Positions 1,377-7,075 of a DNA stretch of 7,075 nt are shown here, piece by piece. Position numbers and translations under genes: made by a program. The notes beneath the pieces are model-generated. The model searched no databases. It was not told the origin of the DNA and saw only the letters and a program-made list of their open reading frames with translations. Origin of the DNA: Candidatus Nanopelagicales bacterium (GTDB lineage: Bacteria > Actinomycetota > Actinomycetes > S36-B12 > UBA10799); contig JAUYKX010000010.1 of the NCBI GenBank assembly GCA_030699055.1, positions 1 through 7,075 on the forward strand, written 5' to 3'. The first letter of the stretch is position 1; every line of letters begins with the position of its first letter.

Positions 1377-2348
1377 ATGAGCGCCAGGCAAATGGGAATT
1401 GCGGCCCTTGGTGCTGGTTTGGTATTGGCCCTGGGCGCATGCTCCGTGGAAAGTGCAACCGATCAAATTCGCGAGGCTGGCGGAACCTCGCCCCCTGCGG
1501 TTGCCGCCCTCAAGGATTGCTCGGAGACTCCTAAGACAAGCGGAGAGAATCTTTCTCGCTGTGACCTGTCCGGGGCGGACCTGAGCGGGGCGAGACTGAT
1601 TAATTCGAACCTGAGCGACGCCGACCTGTCCGGGGCGAACCTGAGCGGGGCAAGACTGAAAATGTCGAACCTGTCCGGAGCGAACCTGTCCGGAGCGAAC
1701 CTGAGCGGGGCGAACCTGGTCGGGGCGAACCTGGTCGGGGCGAACCTGACCGGCGCGGATCTTCGCGATGCCGACCTGGAGTGGGCGGATCTTCGCCAGG
1801 CGAACCTGAGCGGGGCGAACCTGTTCCAGGCGAAGAACTTGGACAAGACGGGGAACCTGCGCAAAGCGAACCTGAGCGCGGCGAACCTGGTCGAGGCGAA
1901 ACTGGAAAGGGTGAACCTGGAAGGGACCCAGATGTTTGCGGCGAACCTTCAGGGGGCGAACCTGACCGCGGCGAACCTGAACGGAGCGGACCTGCGCGAG
2001 GCGAACCTGTCCAGAGCAAGACTGCGCATGATCACGGCGTTCGACGCGGACCTGCGCGAGGCGAACCTATCCGGCGCGAATCTGCACAATGTGAATCTTT
2101 CGGGGTCAGACCTGTCCGCATCGAACCTGTCTCGGTCAGACCTGTCCGCGGCGGACCTGTCTCGGTCAAACCTGTCCGGGGCAAACCTGACCGATGCGGA
2201 CCTGCGCGGAGCGAGCCTCTTCAAGGCGGACCTGACCGACGCGGACCTGCGCGGAGCACGCCTGTCCGAGGCGAACCTGGACTCGGCAACCTGGGTGGAT
2301 GGACAAAAGTGTCAAGACAGGGCTAACCCGCCCACGTGCCCCCGTTAG
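1377..2348 (+). CDS. Pentapeptide-repeat lipoprotein
   Basis: 323 aa, ATG at 1377 behind a purine-rich AGAGAAGAGAAG ribosome-binding region. Residues 1-22 are a lipoprotein signal ending in the lipobox L19-G20-A21-C22, so the mature protein should be lipidated at Cys22 and sit on the outer face of the membrane. A short linker (23-60, with C48) leads into pentapeptide repeats of the A(D/N)LSG type. The central Leu falls every five residues from L64 to L149 (18 repeats) and again from L161 to L301 (29 repeats). A two-residue slip at 150-160 (around AKNLDKTGN) probably makes a loop. Such repeats fold into a right-handed four-sided beta-helix; about 47 of them would give roughly 12 turns. The end (WVDGQKC...CPR) is a short cap with two Cys. 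Known cytoplasmic members such as Qnr and MfpA mimic DNA for gyrase, but the lipobox argues against that role here. It could be a surface spacer or binding protein; the function is unknown. It ends 73 nt from the convergent Lon-like gene. Confidence 0.93.
   Translation: MSARQMGIAALGAGLVLALGACSVESATDQIREAGGTSPPAVAALKDCSETPKTSGENLSRCDLSGADLSGARLINSNLSDADLSGANLSGARLKMSNLSGANLSGANLSGANLVGANLVGANLTGADLRDADLEWADLRQANLSGANLFQAKNLDKTGNLRKANLSAANLVEAKLERVNLEGTQMFAANLQGANLTAANLNGADLREANLSRARLRMITAFDADLREANLSGANLHNVNLSGSDLSASNLSRSDLSAADLSRSNLSGANLTDADLRGASLFKADLTDADLRGARLSEANLDSATWVDGQKCQDRANPPTCPR
1560..2291 (+). repeat. Degenerate 15-bp tandem repeat encoding the pentapeptides
   Basis: The pentapeptide region is repetitive at DNA level, with a roughly 15-bp unit close to GCGAACCTGAGCGGG repeated throughout. 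The copies between about 1565 and 1755 are the most alike and later ones more diverged. The period is a multiple of three, so gain or loss of units keeps the reading frame. This repetition also creates long open frames on the other strand and in the +2/+3 frames, which are not genes. Confidence 0.85.
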
Positions 2349-2421: not shown

Positions 2422-4227
2422 CTAATCGAGTTCAGCCAACCCGGACAGAATCTGACCGTTCACATACATGAACCACATGTAGGTCAGCCCGAATGTTCGG
2501 GCGCGACCGGTTCCGGGACCGGATGTTCCGGTTGCCAGGCCCGATCCCCAGCGGCTGTTCCACTCCAGATACGCCGTGTTCAATCCCCTGGTGTCGAGGT
2601 GATGGAAAACGGCACGGTTCGAGGCCACAGCGACAGCGGTCAACGCGTCGATGCTCACCGGATCGACGATGCGCTCCAACCCCAATCCATCGCGGGTTTT
2701 GATCAATCCCCCCGCGTCGGCGACGAGCGCTGATGCGTATATGTAATAGGACTGCGTGGCAGCCAGGGCCAGCAGTTGAGTCGCCGAGTCGCGAACCGAA
2801 CGCAACTCGTCAACCAGAACGCCGTGCGCCGTTGCCTGCGAGTAGGTGCTGAGACTGTCGGCACCGGCAATCTTATGTACCTTGTCGAAGTAGTTCATAA
2901 GGCTGTCGCCCGCATGGTCGAGGAAGTTCACCCAGCCGTCCAGAGCATCCGCCATGTCGGTCGGCGCTGGTCGCGAACTCACCTGCGCAGCCACTGCGGC
3001 GACGTCGGATGCAACTTCCACGCCTTCGAACAATGCCTGGGCCTGCAGGTCTGCGGCGTCAGCCAACTTGTCGGAATCAACTGACCCGGCGAGCGACTGG
3101 TTGACTCGGCGCAGGTCGACCAATGCGTCGGTCACCCAGGAAAGCGCATCGGCGCCGTTCGCTACCCTCTCGAGGTCTCCGGGAAGCTGTGGCGACAGAT
3201 CCCGACTCTGCTCCATCAGCTTGGCGGTTGCATCGATATTTTCCTGCTGCAGTTTGCCCCGGACCGAAGTTGTTCCTAAACGATCAATATCGACAACGGT
3301 GCCGGTTCGCGCGATCAGCCCGCGCGCTTCAGCGAGCACTGCTGTTGCATCCGAGTAGGCGTCAACGATCCGACCCTCAATTAGCGCGGCTTTCCCCTTC
3401 TCCAATGTCGACACCGCTGTCGCCCTCCGGGCGCCTCCCTTTCCTTCGAGTCGCTCCAGCAACGCGGCAGCCTCATCGAGATACGACTCCGCACGTCGGG
3501 CGAGAAGCGATCGTGCCCCTTCCGGCAGTGGTCCGCCCACTGCGGCGTCAGGTGGAGTCGGTCCGCCAACCACTATCTGGTAGGCCTGCATCAGCGATGC
3601 CACCGGCTTCACCGCGATTCCCAGAGATCGACCCAACTCCACCGTGTTGACATCGGTGCCAGTGGTCGTATCCCGACTGACCACACCGGCTTCGGGTATG
3701 ACAACGGATGCGAATCCCGCGTCCTTGGCTGCGCGGATCTTCGAAGGGATGCCACCGACGTTGCCGATCGAACCATCGGGCGCAATCGTCCCGGTCATAG
3801 TCACATCGGGCAGCGGTTCGGCGTCATTGAGCGCCGCGAGCACACCAACGGTCATTATCCCGCCCGCCGACGGGCCGTCAATCTCTCCGGTTATCGAGTA
3901 TGAGATCCGTAGGGTGCGTGGGTCGGAATGCGATGCGAGGGTGGCCGCCGTTGCCGCACCCCAGGCCGCGGCATCCCATGCGGGTCCGGCGCCTTGATCA
4001 CGTCCAGTCTGCAAATCCAGCGTGAACTCGGATGGGCGGCGGCGTTCAACGGTTATGGTCACCGGCTCGGTGCCGGCTGTAGGTGTGCCGTCTGCCGCGC
4101 GACCGAACCACAAAGCGGTGACGGTGACACTGTCCGGACCCCCAGGAAGACCGCACGATGTCAACAGGGTCGCCAACACCGCGCATGTCAGCACACCGCT
4201 GGCGACAGAACGAACTGGCTTGGCCAT
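2422..4227 (-). CDS. Lon-like (S16) serine protease lipoprotein without ATPase domain
   Basis: 601 aa, ATG at 4227 to TAG at 2422. Residues 1-25 are a lipoprotein signal (MAKPVR, hydrophobic core, lipobox L22-T23-S24-C25), so the protein is predicted to be membrane-anchored outside the cytoplasm. Residues about 85-215 match the Lon proteolytic domain: DGPSAGG with the catalytic Ser120, and the GGIPSKIRAAKDAG segment with the catalytic Lys163. The Ser-to-Lys distance of 43 residues equals that of E. coli Lon (S679/K722). There is no Walker A or other AAA+ motif anywhere, so proteolysis would not be ATP-driven; related AAA-less Lon proteins are known, notably in archaea. Residues about 240-601 are Ala/Leu/Asp-rich, probably helical, ending in an aromatic stretch (YMWFMYVNG); I recognise no family there. 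The frame extends upstream to a GTG at 4281, but only the 4227 start places the signal peptide at the N-terminus. The Shine-Dalgarno is weak. It converges on the pentapeptide lipoprotein. Confidence 0.88.
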   Translation of the reverse strand: MAKPVRSVASGVLTCAVLATLLTSCGLPGGPDSVTVTALWFGRAADGTPTAGTEPVTITVERRRPSEFTLDLQTGRDQGAGPAWDAAAWGAATAATLASHSDPRTLRISYSITGEIDGPSAGGIMTVGVLAALNDAEPLPDVTMTGTIAPDGSIGNVGGIPSKIRAAKDAGFASVVIPEAGVVSRDTTTGTDVNTVELGRSLGIAVKPVASLMQAYQIVVGGPTPPDAAVGGPLPEGARSLLARRAESYLDEAAALLERLEGKGGARRATAVSTLEKGKAALIEGRIVDAYSDATAVLAEARGLIARTGTVVDIDRLGTTSVRGKLQQENIDATAKLMEQSRDLSPQLPGDLERVANGADALSWVTDALVDLRRVNQSLAGSVDSDKLADAADLQAQALFEGVEVASDVAAVAAQVSSRPAPTDMADALDGWVNFLDHAGDSLMNYFDKVHKIAGADSLSTYSQATAHGVLVDELRSVRDSATQLLALAATQSYYIYASALVADAGGLIKTRDGLGLERIVDPVSIDALTAVAVASNRAVFHHLDTRGLNTAYLEWNSRWGSGLATGTSGPGTGRARTFGLTYMWFMYVNGQILSGLAELD

Positions 4228-4512
4228 GCCGACTAGTTTGTCGACACTGCGGCGGCTTCGCCCACCTGAGTCGATATCCACCCCGAATCAATACCCAGAT
4301 CGGACTAATCGATGTCAACCGAACTTGAAACCGTTGCAGCAACCATTCGCCACTCTCGGCGCCGTCCAGGCTTGCCATCGACCTGGGCCGGGTGGCGAGT
4401 AGCCCGAGTTGATCCCGACCCGGATTTCACCCGCCGAATAGCCGTTCGGCCACCCGGGCGAGGCTGCCCGCTAACCCGTATCCGGATCCTCCGAACAAAC
4501 CCATCGGGCCGA
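4228..4512. other. Intergenic region between GGGtGRT gene and Lon-like gene
   Basis: About 285 nt upstream of the Lon-like gene and downstream of the GGGtGRT gene, both on the minus strand. It should hold the end of the operon transcript and the promoter of the Lon-like gene. I see one clean small hairpin (4433-4450) and no convincing promoter boxes. Small open frames here on either strand show no recognisable protein features. Confidence 0.5.
4433..4450. other. Small inverted repeat, possible transcript-end hairpin
   Basis: GCCGAA and TTCGGC form a perfect 6-bp stem around a 6-nt loop (TAGCCG), lying 62 nt after the stop codon of the GGGtGRT gene in its direction of transcription. No T-run follows on the minus strand, so it is not a classical Rho-independent terminator. 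GC-rich actinobacteria often lack the T-run, so a terminator role remains possible but unproven. Confidence 0.25.
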
Positions 4513-5583
4513 TCAATGCCGCATTGTTGGCTGCTGGTTTCGACTGTTTCGCCGTTGGGTTGTTGACATCGCTGGCTGAGGCGAGCGCGCCAGCGCCTGC
4601 TCCACCGCCACCGCGACCGCCACTGACGCGCCAACCATCGGGTTGTTGCCCATGCCGATCAGCCCCATCATCTCGACGTGCGCCGGCACCGACGACGATC
4701 CGGCGAACTGGGCGTCGGAATGCATCCGGCCCATGGTGTCGGTCAAGCCGTAGCTGGCCGGGCCGGCGCCGACGTTGTCCGGGTGCATGGTGCGGCCGGT
4801 CCCGCCGCCGGACGCCACCGAGAAGTAAGGCTTGCCAAGCAGGATGCGCTCCTGCTTGTAGGTGCCGGCGACCGGATGCTGGAACCGGGCGGCGTTGGTC
4901 GAGTTGCCGGTGATCGAAATGTCGACCTGCTCGTGGTGCATCACCGCGACCGCCTCGACAACGTCATCGCTGCCATAGCAGTTGATCTCGCCACGGACAC
5001 TGTCACTGAATCGACGTTGGCTGACCACGTTCAACTCGCCGGTCGCGTAGTCGAACTGGGTGTGAACGTAGTTGAAACCATTGACCCGCGAGATTTGGTA
5101 CGCCGGGTCCTTACCCAGGCCGTTCAGGATCACTCGCAGCGGCTGAGTGCGCACTTGGTTGGCGTTCTGTGCGATCTTGATCGCCCCCTCGGCCGCGGCG
5201 AACGACTCGTGGCCGGCGAGGAAGCAGAAGCAGGCCGACTCCTCCGACAGCAGGCGCGCCGCCAGCTTGCCGTGACCCAGGCCAACTTGGCGCTGATCGG
5301 CCACGGAGCCCGGAACGCAGAACGCCTGCAGGCCAATTCCCAGCGACTCGGCCGCATCTGCGGCTTTTCGGTTGTTGTTCTTGATCGCGATCCCGGCTCC
5401 GAGCACGTAAGCCCAGCGCGCGTTCTCAAACGAGATCGGCTGCGTCTCATGGACGATCTCGTACGGATCGAAGCCCAAGTCGACGCACTGCTGACGGGCT
5501 TGCTCCAAGCTGCCCAGCCCGTATTCGGCGATAGTCGCCTCGACGCGCTGCTCGCGTCGCTTCTTCCCCTCGAAGTCCGGCAT
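4513..5583 (-). CDS. GGGtGRT family protein
   Basis: 356 aa, ATG at 5583 to TGA at 4513. It belongs to the family named after its signature (Pfam GGGtGRT protein): GGGTGRT at residues 259-265, followed by MHPDN and the very conserved AGPASYGLTDTMGRMHSDAQ and GSSSVPAHVEMMGLIGMGNNPMVGA blocks up to about residue 320. Earlier conserved blocks are FENARWAYVLGAGIAIK (52-68), GHGKLAARLLSEESACFCFLAGHES (103-127) and NGFNYVHTQFDY (168-179). Cysteines are at 33, 89, 118, 120 and 202; the CFC pair sits in a conserved block. There is no signal peptide, so it is probably cytoplasmic. The last about 25 residues (from about 331) are polar and lie beyond the conserved core. The start is fixed by AGGGAG four nt upstream, which overlaps the stop of the scaffold gene. 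I know of no established reaction; the partner gene points to iron-sulfur or other metal-cofactor biochemistry, which is inference. Confidence 0.93.
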   Translation of the reverse strand: MPDFEGKKRREQRVEATIAEYGLGSLEQARQQCVDLGFDPYEIVHETQPISFENARWAYVLGAGIAIKNNNRKAADAAESLGIGLQAFCVPGSVADQRQVGLGHGKLAARLLSEESACFCFLAGHESFAAAEGAIKIAQNANQVRTQPLRVILNGLGKDPAYQISRVNGFNYVHTQFDYATGELNVVSQRRFSDSVRGEINCYGSDDVVEAVAVMHHEQVDISITGNSTNAARFQHPVAGTYKQERILLGKPYFSVASGGGTGRTMHPDNVGAGPASYGLTDTMGRMHSDAQFAGSSSVPAHVEMMGLIGMGNNPMVGASVAVAVAVEQALARSPQPAMSTTQRRNSRNQQPTMRH

Positions 5584-5587
5584 GACG

Positions 5588-5593
5588 CTCCCT
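5588..5593 (-). promoter_or_regulatory. Ribosome-binding site coupling the two operon genes
   Basis: AGGGAG on the minus strand, four nt before the ATG of the GGGtGRT gene and overlapping the TAG stop of the scaffold gene. Only 8 nt separate the two coding regions, so translation of the second gene is probably coupled to termination on the first. Confidence 0.7.
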
Positions 5594-6257
5594 ATTCCTT
5601 GCGCGGATCGACGTAACGGACGGCCTCGTCGAAACGCCCGTAGGTGGTTTTGCTCGCGGCGATCGCCTCGTTGGCATCGGTGCCGTCGGCGACCAGCCGC
5701 ATCATCGCCCCGAGGTTGACGATCTCGTACCCGATGATTTCGCTGTGATCATCGAGTGCGAGTCGGGTGACGTAGCCCTCGGTCAGCTCCAGGTAGCGCG
5801 GCCCTTTCGCCGAGGTCCCGTAGACCGTGCCGACCTGCGAGCGCAGGTTCATGCCCAGGTCCTCCAGGCCCGCCCCGACCGGCAGCCCGCCCTCGGAGAA
5901 CGCTGTCTGACTGCGCCCGTACGCCAGGTTCTGAACCAATTCGCGCACCGCGACGTTGATCGCGTCGCACACCAGGTCTGTGTTCAGCGCCTCCAGAATC
6001 GTGCGGCCGGTCAGGACTTCCGCGGCCATCGCCGCCGAATGCGTCATCCCCGAGCAGCCGACCGTTTCAATCAGGCACTCCTCGATGCTGCCGCCCTTGA
6101 CGTTCAGCGTGACCTTCGTGGCCCCCTGATGGGGTGCGCAAGTCCCGACCCCGTTCGACAGTCCGGAGATGTCGCTGACTTGCAGCGCGTGTACCCAGCG
6201 ACCCTCGACCGGGATCGGCGCGTTGGGATTATCGGGTCCGCGCGAGATCGGACACAT
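5592..6257 (-). CDS. Iron-sulfur cluster scaffold family protein (IscU/NifU-like), GGGtGRT partner
   Basis: 221 aa from the ATG at 6257. Residues about 38-108 follow the IscU/NifU N-terminal pattern: GTCAPHQGATKVTLNVK (C40), IEECLIETVGCSGMTHS (C61, C68) and AAEVLTGRTILEALN, followed by DLVCDAINVAVREL (C97). C40 and C68 align with the first two cluster-binding Cys of IscU; the third IscU Cys is not obvious, and its place seems to be AYGRSQTAFSEGG. The rest (120-221: GAGLEDLGMNLRSQVGTVYG, KGPRYLE, TYGRFDEAVRYVDPRKE) is specific to the subfamily paired with GGGtGRT proteins. It is presumably cytoplasmic and may bind or pass on an Fe-S cluster to its partner. The start is uncertain: 6257 has GGAG close upstream and good codon use. 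The frame stays open to 6449, with alternatives at GTG 6344 (GGAGG upstream) and ATGs 6377, 6386, 6395 and 6449. That extension is Pro/Gln-rich with weaker third-position GC. It is first in the operon. Confidence 0.9.
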   Translation of the reverse strand: MCPISRGPDNPNAPIPVEGRWVHALQVSDISGLSNGVGTCAPHQGATKVTLNVKGGSIEECLIETVGCSGMTHSAAMAAEVLTGRTILEALNTDLVCDAINVAVRELVQNLAYGRSQTAFSEGGLPVGAGLEDLGMNLRSQVGTVYGTSAKGPRYLELTEGYVTRLALDDHSEIIGYEIVNLGAMMRLVADGTDANEAIAASKTTYGRFDEAVRYVDPRKE

Positions 6258-6563: not shown

Positions 6564-6587
6564 CAGAGCGAAAGATGGGGTGTGAAG

Positions 6588-6809
6588 ATGACCGATGTGC
6601 TCATCCGGGATCTACCTGACGACGTAATCGCGGCAATCGATCGCAATGCCGAACGGTTGGGCTTATCGCGCAACGAGTACCTACGCCGCCAGTTGGCCCT
6701 GGACATTGGGTCCACTCAATCCGAATTGAATGCGGACGCCTGGAGAACCTTCGGTGAGACGTTCGCCGACCTCGCTGACCCGACCGTGATGGATGGCGCG
6801 TGGCGATGA
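6588..6809 (+). CDS. vapB: VapB-like ribbon-helix-helix antitoxin
   Basis: 73 aa from ATG 6588, with GGGG seven nt upstream. A GTG two codons earlier (6582) is less likely because the G-run would touch it. Residues 1-38 are the DNA-binding ribbon-helix-helix: a short strand (TDVLIRDLP), helix (DDVIAAIDRNAERLG) and second helix (SRNEYLRRQLAL). Residues 45-73 are the toxin-binding tail, ending in DPTVMDGAWR. From memory the N-terminal LIRD.PDDV and C-terminal DP..M..AWR resemble M. tuberculosis VapB2. Its role would be to neutralise the toxin by blocking its active site and, as a VapBC complex, to repress the operon. Its stop codon overlaps the toxin start by ATGA, typical of translationally coupled toxin-antitoxin pairs. 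Confidence 0.9.
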   Translation: MTDVLIRDLPDDVIAAIDRNAERLGLSRNEYLRRQLALDIGSTQSELNADAWRTFGETFADLADPTVMDGAWR

Positions 6810-7075
6810 CGGTCTGGCTGGCAGACAAGTCGGCCCTGGTCCGCTTCCCGCAATGCCCGGAGATCGCGGAATGGTCAGCGCGGGTCACTCGGGGGCTCGT
6901 TCGGATCACCGCTGTGACCCGCCTGGAGATCGGATACTCGGCTCGTTCCGGCACTCAACTTCGCGCGGCAGCGACAAGCCCCCCGTTATCGCTCATGCCG
7001 CTTCAGAACCTGGCGCCGGCTATGGAGGCTCGCGCGATCGAAGTCCAGCAACAACTCGCCGACCGCGGCCACCAT
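6806..7075 (+). CDS. vapC: VapC-like PIN-domain ribonuclease toxin, truncated by window end
   Basis: 90 codons visible from ATG 6806, with the reading frame open at 7075. The start overlaps the vapB stop by 4 nt. The N-terminal LADKSAL carries the first PIN-domain metal-binding acid (Asp7), and TRLEIGY the conserved Glu41. The later acids (expected in a PDLLIA-like motif and near the C-terminus) lie beyond the window. Resemblance to M. tuberculosis VapC2 is good across the visible part (DKSALVR, ITAVTRLE, PPLS.MP, LADRGHH). VapC toxins are Mg2+-dependent endoribonucleases that cleave specific tRNA or rRNA sites when freed from VapB. The visible half looks intact; whether the whole toxin is intact cannot be told here. 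Confidence 0.9.
   Translation, partial: MTVWLADKSALVRFPQCPEIAEWSARVTRGLVRITAVTRLEIGYSARSGTQLRAAATSPPLSLMPLQNLAPAMEARAIEVQQQLADRGHH

Follow-up and report, generated by a model that had tools for sequence, protein, structure and literature searches.

An obligate pair of IscU-like and GGGtGRT proteins with probable membership of the fluoride response

Introduction

Two adjacent genes on a contig of a Candidatus Nanopelagicales bacterium, encoding an IscU-like protein (here S) and a GGGtGRT protein (here G), raise the question of what so conserved a pair does for the cell. The GGGtGRT family, PF14057, appears as a conserved unknown in the papers found on it, which give it no reaction, as a preliminary description of this DNA had also stated. 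G is described as poorly characterised and highly expressed in vivo in gut anaerobes (PMC11204068), and proteomes or expression surveys of the rumen and of the chicken and human gut also report it. A passage of PMC9942572 places GGGtGRT among software-scored putative virulence factors of Clostridium innocuum and contains no supporting test; no support for such a role was seen in the present analysis. The preliminary description had proposed a dedicated cluster-delivery pair, in which S builds a cluster and hands it over to cysteines of the enzyme G. Here, we show that S and G form a dedicated, obligate pair, never apart in the genomes searched, and that some relatives, from three phyla, have the pair behind fluoride riboswitches or next to genes for fluoride exporters, a link that is new so far as our searches reach.

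Results

The window, by which we mean the whole 7,075-nucleotide stretch analysed, carries S and G on its minus strand (Table 1). Both open reading frames of the preliminary description, their 8-nt spacing and the ribosome-binding site of G at the stop of S proved correct; the GGGAG of G and the TAG that stops S (5594-5592) share one base, the last of the stop. The start of S was placed as in relatives (MCPIS...), in a frame that stays open up to 6449. Conservation is as extreme as had been described, with 115 positions of G and 60 of S invariant over 104 sequences, and the GC content of the pair is 0.650 vs 0.633 in the remaining window. Other genes of the window are a pentapeptide-repeat protein (1377-2348, plus strand; PF00805, 229.8 bits) with an N-terminus that looks lipoprotein-like by eye; a 619-aa protein (2422-4281, minus strand) that has a Lon-type S16 protease domain (Lon_C, 40.3 bits), for which no Lon ATPase was among the listed matches and whose N-terminus by eye resembles a lipoprotein signal; and, within 6582-7075 on the plus strand, a VapB antitoxin (NF050181, 106.9 bits) followed by a frame cut by the window end that by eye is probably its VapC partner.

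Table 1. Positions of the S and G genes and of their conserved elements in the window
Feature	Position	Strand	Evidence or conservation
G, GGGtGRT protein, 356 aa, PF14057	4513..5583	minus	profile match 587.9 bits
G SVASGGGTGRT (255-265), Gly-rich signature loop	4789..4821	minus	model pLDDT <50 from 260
G GNSTN (226-230), conserved loop after predicted core strand	4894..4908	minus	
G GHES (124-127), conserved loop after first predicted core strand	5203..5214	minus	
S stop to G start gap, 8 nt	5584..5591	minus	median in 103 relatives 17 nt
GGGAG ribosome-binding site of G	5588..5592	minus	one-base overlap with S stop
S, IscU-like protein, 221 aa	5592..6257	minus	distant NifU_N/IscU matches, predicted fold of relative
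S Cys97 codon	5967..5969	minus	invariant, 104/104; no IscU position
S Cys68 codon	6054..6056	minus	aligned with second IscU cysteine; invariant, 104/104
S Gln44 codon	6126..6128	minus	aligned with first IscU cysteine; Gln in 104/104
S Cys40 codon	6138..6140	minus	Cys in 104/104

G and S were searched separately in even draws from four phyla, the four set centres being chosen as carriers. G was present in 29 of the 892 sampled genomes, and the same 29 carried S, in every case within 100 nt and with S first by match coordinates. By phylum, both proteins occurred together in 12/296 Actinomycetota, 10/199 Bacillota (the phylum of a Clostridium genome), 6/249 Pseudomonadota and 1/148 Bacteroidota, the last being the chosen set centre itself; for three of the four sets the threshold for S was E <= 1e-20. 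In eighteen further Bacillota genomes the only S-like matches were weak, at about 32 bits or below, the best of them 32 bits vs at least 376 for true S, and a seventh G match in Pseudomonadota (19.9 bits) fell under the family cut-off. The preliminary description had proposed this co-occurrence survey, and its outcome contradicts the alternative that the two genes are usually apart. S also matched directly upstream of G in 79 of 80 collected loci, the exception (L008) stopping at a contig edge; S was split in two pieces in three loci (L014, L052, L070) and cut by the contig end in L060. The same 10 PLSDB records contained both proteins, and record titles and tree labels place the pair in at least seven phyla. 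Distances between S proteins and between G proteins were correlated (r = 0.815 over 5356 pairs), a value that shared descent alone could yield. The genome of L041 additionally holds part of a second GGGtGRT gene, a fragment of 56 positions (G357:C13:169180-169347) about 24 kb from the intact one.

S resembles the IscU scaffolds at a distance. The window protein scored 17.3-17.9 bits against Pfam NifU_N, under the cut-off of 22; NifU_N was matched by 32/32 aligned S proteins at E <= 0.1 (best E 9.8e-6), S matched the IscU chain 4eb5 (E 2.6e-4), and the IscU fold is present in the predicted model of an S relative. Two cysteines of S had been described as IscU-like. Cys68 does occupy the second IscU position, whereas Gln44, not Cys40, aligns with the first, and the first IscU cysteine is therefore replaced in S, as is the Asp position that follows it. 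The preliminary description had placed the replacement at the third cysteine, a region of IscU that is not alignable to S. Among the cysteines that it had called extra, Cys97 is invariant and Cys61 is not conserved (Cys in just 14/81); position 47 is Cys in 93/104 and Thr in the window copy. S thus differs from IscU, NifU_N and SufU scaffolds in the invariant Gln at the first cysteine, in having Cys40 and Cys97 at new positions, in an extra C-terminal half and in being found only alongside G.

G is a full-length member of PF14057 (cut-off 27 bits; positions 1-327 of 327) with a C-terminal tail beyond about residue 333 that is not conserved. No invariant cysteine was present in G among 104 sequences, in which Cys118 was kept in 101, Cys33 in 100, Cys202 in 99 and Cys89 in 93. 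Delivery of a cluster from S to cysteines of G would draw on the obligate pairing and on the closer set of 206 sequences, in which Cys118 is kept in 206, Cys202 in 205 and Cys89 in 203, but Cys118, Cys202 and Cys89 are all absent from G of L100, L101 and L102, in which S keeps Cys40, Cys68 and Cys97. Because all three are lost together (in L101 as read from its sequence), they are not essential cluster ligands in these loci; Cys89, which had been singled out earlier, is common in G but not invariant. Nor is the CFC pair (118-120) of the preliminary description a conserved feature, since position 120 is Cys in 59/206 and Ala in 147/206 of the closer set. Maturation of G by S through Cys118 and Cys120 is unlikely, because the first IscU cysteine of S is Gln and G is without an invariant cysteine. 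The loss of cysteines in L100-L102 takes away the basis of the delivery model, which we now regard as very improbable, and leaves a joint working of S and G unaffected. Of that earlier proposal, the dedicated pair and the link to iron (below) survive, and the handing over to Cys118 and Cys120 does not.

An Rfam scan at gathering thresholds of 54 sources (the window, 25 of the 80 loci, 24 loci from other genomes and 4 PLSDB loci) gave 15 matches to the fluoride riboswitch RF01734 in 14 loci, and 14 of the 15 lay upstream of S-G; the scanned loci are a weak control for chance, because many are short and centred on S-G. The exception is a second match in L100 (187-248, minus strand) at the far end of an S-G-CrcB-CrcB-DUF190 operon, facing the next gene. 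The 14 loci represent 12 distinct genomes, L118 coming from the genome of L002 and L136 being like L133: Photobacterium aquae (L002; 35.4 bits, cut-off 34), Motilimonas pumila (L003), five further Pseudomonadota (L119-L123; 47.2-58.4 bits), Vibrio sp. THAF191d (L133), two Bacillota (L100, L102) and two Persicobacter (L134, L135). Among carriers from the even draws, RF01734 was found in 6/6 Pseudomonadota and 2/10 Bacillota. In L100 and L102, terminator-like hairpins (-20.9 and -18.8 kcal/mol) with T-rich tails are built with the conserved 3' strand of the aptamer, a layout that would turn transcription on with fluoride.

The distribution of the switch is uneven. No fluoride riboswitch was detected in 12/12 Actinomycetota carriers (Rfam covered 8 of the 11 besides the window), in the Pseudomonadota locus L015 (Succinivibrio) or in the other scanned Bacteroidota and Clostridia loci, and most S-G loci, those of gut Bacteroidota, Clostridia and Coriobacteriia, showed neither riboswitch nor exporter. 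A second model, R1, built from nine of the sites, matched only L003 across the 80 loci and the window; L002 escapes it, and the weak Photobacterium site scores just 14.3 bits with this model (E 0.35) in L118. The window itself yielded no fluoride riboswitch with Rfam or with R1, at lax settings too, and no fluoride exporter was seen among its open reading frames. The fluoride context comes from relatives and not from the window. That most loci are without any detected fluoride element would suit an incidental link, in which some lineages simply carry S-G along beside fluoride genes. Against this, the aptamer ends 75-222 nt before the start of S in 11 of the 12 genomes, several arrangements occur across the three phyla that hold the riboswitch-bearing and exporter-adjacent relatives, and, although some riboswitch genomes are close kin, the riboswitch label needs at least five changes on the tree. 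We therefore give an incidental link hardly any credence.

Fluoride-related genes adjoin the pair in several loci. L100 and L102 have the order riboswitch-S-G-CrcB-CrcB-DUF190, and a third Bacillota locus, L101, repeats this order with no riboswitch detected. In L046 (Draconibacterium) the order is CrcB-DUF190-S-G-C_GCAxxG_C_C-enolase, on a single strand and likewise with no riboswitch detected. In the Persicobacter locus L134, a CLC-family gene, a putative fluoride exporter, lies between the aptamer and S in the order CLC-S-G. DUF190 (PF02641) travels with CrcB and S-G in L100, L101, L102 and L046 and has a weak P-II likeness in L100 and L102; the C_GCAxxG_C_C gene of L046 (9094-9561, plus strand) encodes a putative redox protein (PF09719). 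CrcB and DUF190 occurred in 3 of 16 regions of 16-18 kb around S-G, those of the L100, L101 and L102 genomes, and tblastn of the other 13 (5 Pseudomonadota, 5 Bacillota, 3 Actinomycetota) gave no relatives of CrcB, CLC, DUF190, enolase or C_GCAxxG. Five Pseudomonadota have a riboswitch before S-G and no relative of CrcB, CLC, DUF190 or enolase within 16-17 kb, as would suit a pair that acts on fluoride chemistry itself, for example through fluoride binding or the breakdown of a fluorinated by-product such as fluorophosphate. A metabolic enzyme accords better with the high in vivo expression in gut anaerobes in the passages of PMC11204068 and with the response to iron in Clostridium and Bacteroides, on the assumption that these bacteria meet little fluoride, and direct action on fluoride chemistry is in our judgement improbable.

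Enolase, a classic fluoride target, was the commonest family among the nearest neighbours, with 3 of 141 open reading frames from the 80 loci (66 downstream, 75 upstream; mechanically called, so that some may be no genes), and no other listed family exceeded two; PRK08350 had the same count and was taken as the same enolases. At up to 1 kb from the pair, enolase was present in 4/80 loci, from Clostridium, Faecalibacillus, Akkermansia and Draconibacterium (L046 included). A Poisson estimate for the nearest-neighbour enolases, assuming 2500 genes per genome, was 2.9e-5; being uncorrected and noticed after the fact, the enrichment is suggestive only, and the small count is not significant when corrected for thousands of families.

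Fe-S supply systems are usually raised in low iron. The opposite was reported for Bacteroides BT0173-74, which fell 11- to 12.8-fold under iron depletion in the passages of PMC10434189. The corresponding part of PMC5395762 gives higher levels with iron for C. pasteurianum G (7.1-fold early, 2.2-fold late) and for a NifU-related protein whose locus tag is next to that of G and which is for this reason taken for S (1.6- to 3.7-fold). These responses bear on whether S-G is a factor for Fe-S supply or repair, with S as a special kind of scaffold or carrier that G assists, and with demand raised by metal-disturbing fluoride stress. The predicted IscU fold, the three invariant cysteines of S, the rise of both proteins with iron and the redox-like protein behind G in L046 are all compatible with supply or repair, but S was never seen without G in the genomes searched, it retains neither the first IscU cysteine nor the Asp position after it, no cysteine desulfurase was among the 25 top families listed for the 141 nearest neighbours, and the fall in low iron runs counter to the usual supply systems. 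We consider supply or repair unlikely.

The copy in the window branches among riboswitch-bearing copies and is itself without a switch. In a tree of joined S plus G (53 rows; bootstrap not fully settled), it is sister to Motilimonas L003 (support 99/91), in an 8-row clade (support 100/100) in which 7 rows bear a riboswitch. None of 59 genomes from the same family and order as the window's organism carried G, while database proteins with 87-92% identity exist, one of them named Actinomycetes; GGGtGRT likely arrived laterally in this lineage. For the window's own organism, we infer a fluoride role from kinship only.

Discussion

Membership of the fluoride response in relatives is the best-supported new property of S-G, and a fluoride-related role of the family is in our view highly probable. 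Because in some relatives the pair sits under fluoride riboswitches or beside exporters, S-G likely helps cells keep metabolism running once fluoride enters. Known fluoride-riboswitch operons contain CrcB/Fluc, CLC-F, enolase, pyrophosphatase and UspA, as in Enterobacter cloacae FRM in the passages of PMC5533749. S-G shares with these a common riboswitch family, and CrcB and enolase also occur with it; it differs from them in that it is no exporter and no enzyme known to be sensitive to fluoride, and in that many genomes keep it without a detected switch. The literature found does not tie fluoride or its riboswitch to GGGtGRT, IscU or NifU, and a mention is possible in Baker et al. 2012, who reportedly described the fluoride riboswitch and its linked genes.

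We propose that S-G is one iron-dependent, two-protein enzyme of central metabolism that belongs to the fluoride response, a reading whose chances we hold to be evenly balanced. Within it, a single iron-dependent enzyme complex is somewhat favoured, and a role near enolase is a tentative suggestion only. The invariant cysteines and the published iron response suggest that S likely holds an iron-sulfur cluster or iron on Cys40, Cys68 and Cys97, within a remodelled IscU fold. G may have a Rossmann-like core in which conserved loops lie densely at the ends of the strands and likely form the substrate pocket; no clear fold match for G was found, and the pocket is for this reason something we infer. 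A predicted model of fused S-G gave a pTM of 0.76, a figure for the model as a whole. Our confidence falls from S holding a cluster, to G being the catalytic part, to the step lying near enolase. Where a riboswitch is present, its fluoride-bound form would let transcription run into S-G, so that cells would make more of the pair when fluoride enters, either because fluoride inhibits S-G or to restore flux around a fluoride-blocked enolase step. In gut anaerobes, for which no riboswitch appeared in our scans, S-G may instead serve as an iron-governed housekeeping enzyme.

A bolder version of this proposal is that S-G is a new Fe-S enzyme that replaces or relieves the fluoride-blocked enolase step, the IscU fold having turned into a catalytic subunit. 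It would provide a fluoride-tolerant lower-glycolysis route, constant in fermenting gut bacteria and fluoride-switched in Vibrio, Photobacterium, Persicobacter and their kin. Fe-S hydro-lyases include L-serine dehydratase and aconitase, and the likeness of S-G to them is in idea only, namely a three-cysteine cluster doing enolase-like dehydration chemistry; no sequence or fold match to them was found. We regard this version as a long shot.

The link to fluoride gives a widespread, gut-expressed family, to which the papers found assign no function, a concrete handle, comprising a stressor, natural riboswitch reporters and a suspect pathway in enolase and lower glycolysis. Should S carry a cluster, the IscU fold would have been recruited as a dedicated enzyme subunit, and fluoride tolerance would have in S-G an arm that depends on iron, a point of relevance to microbes employed against organofluorines.
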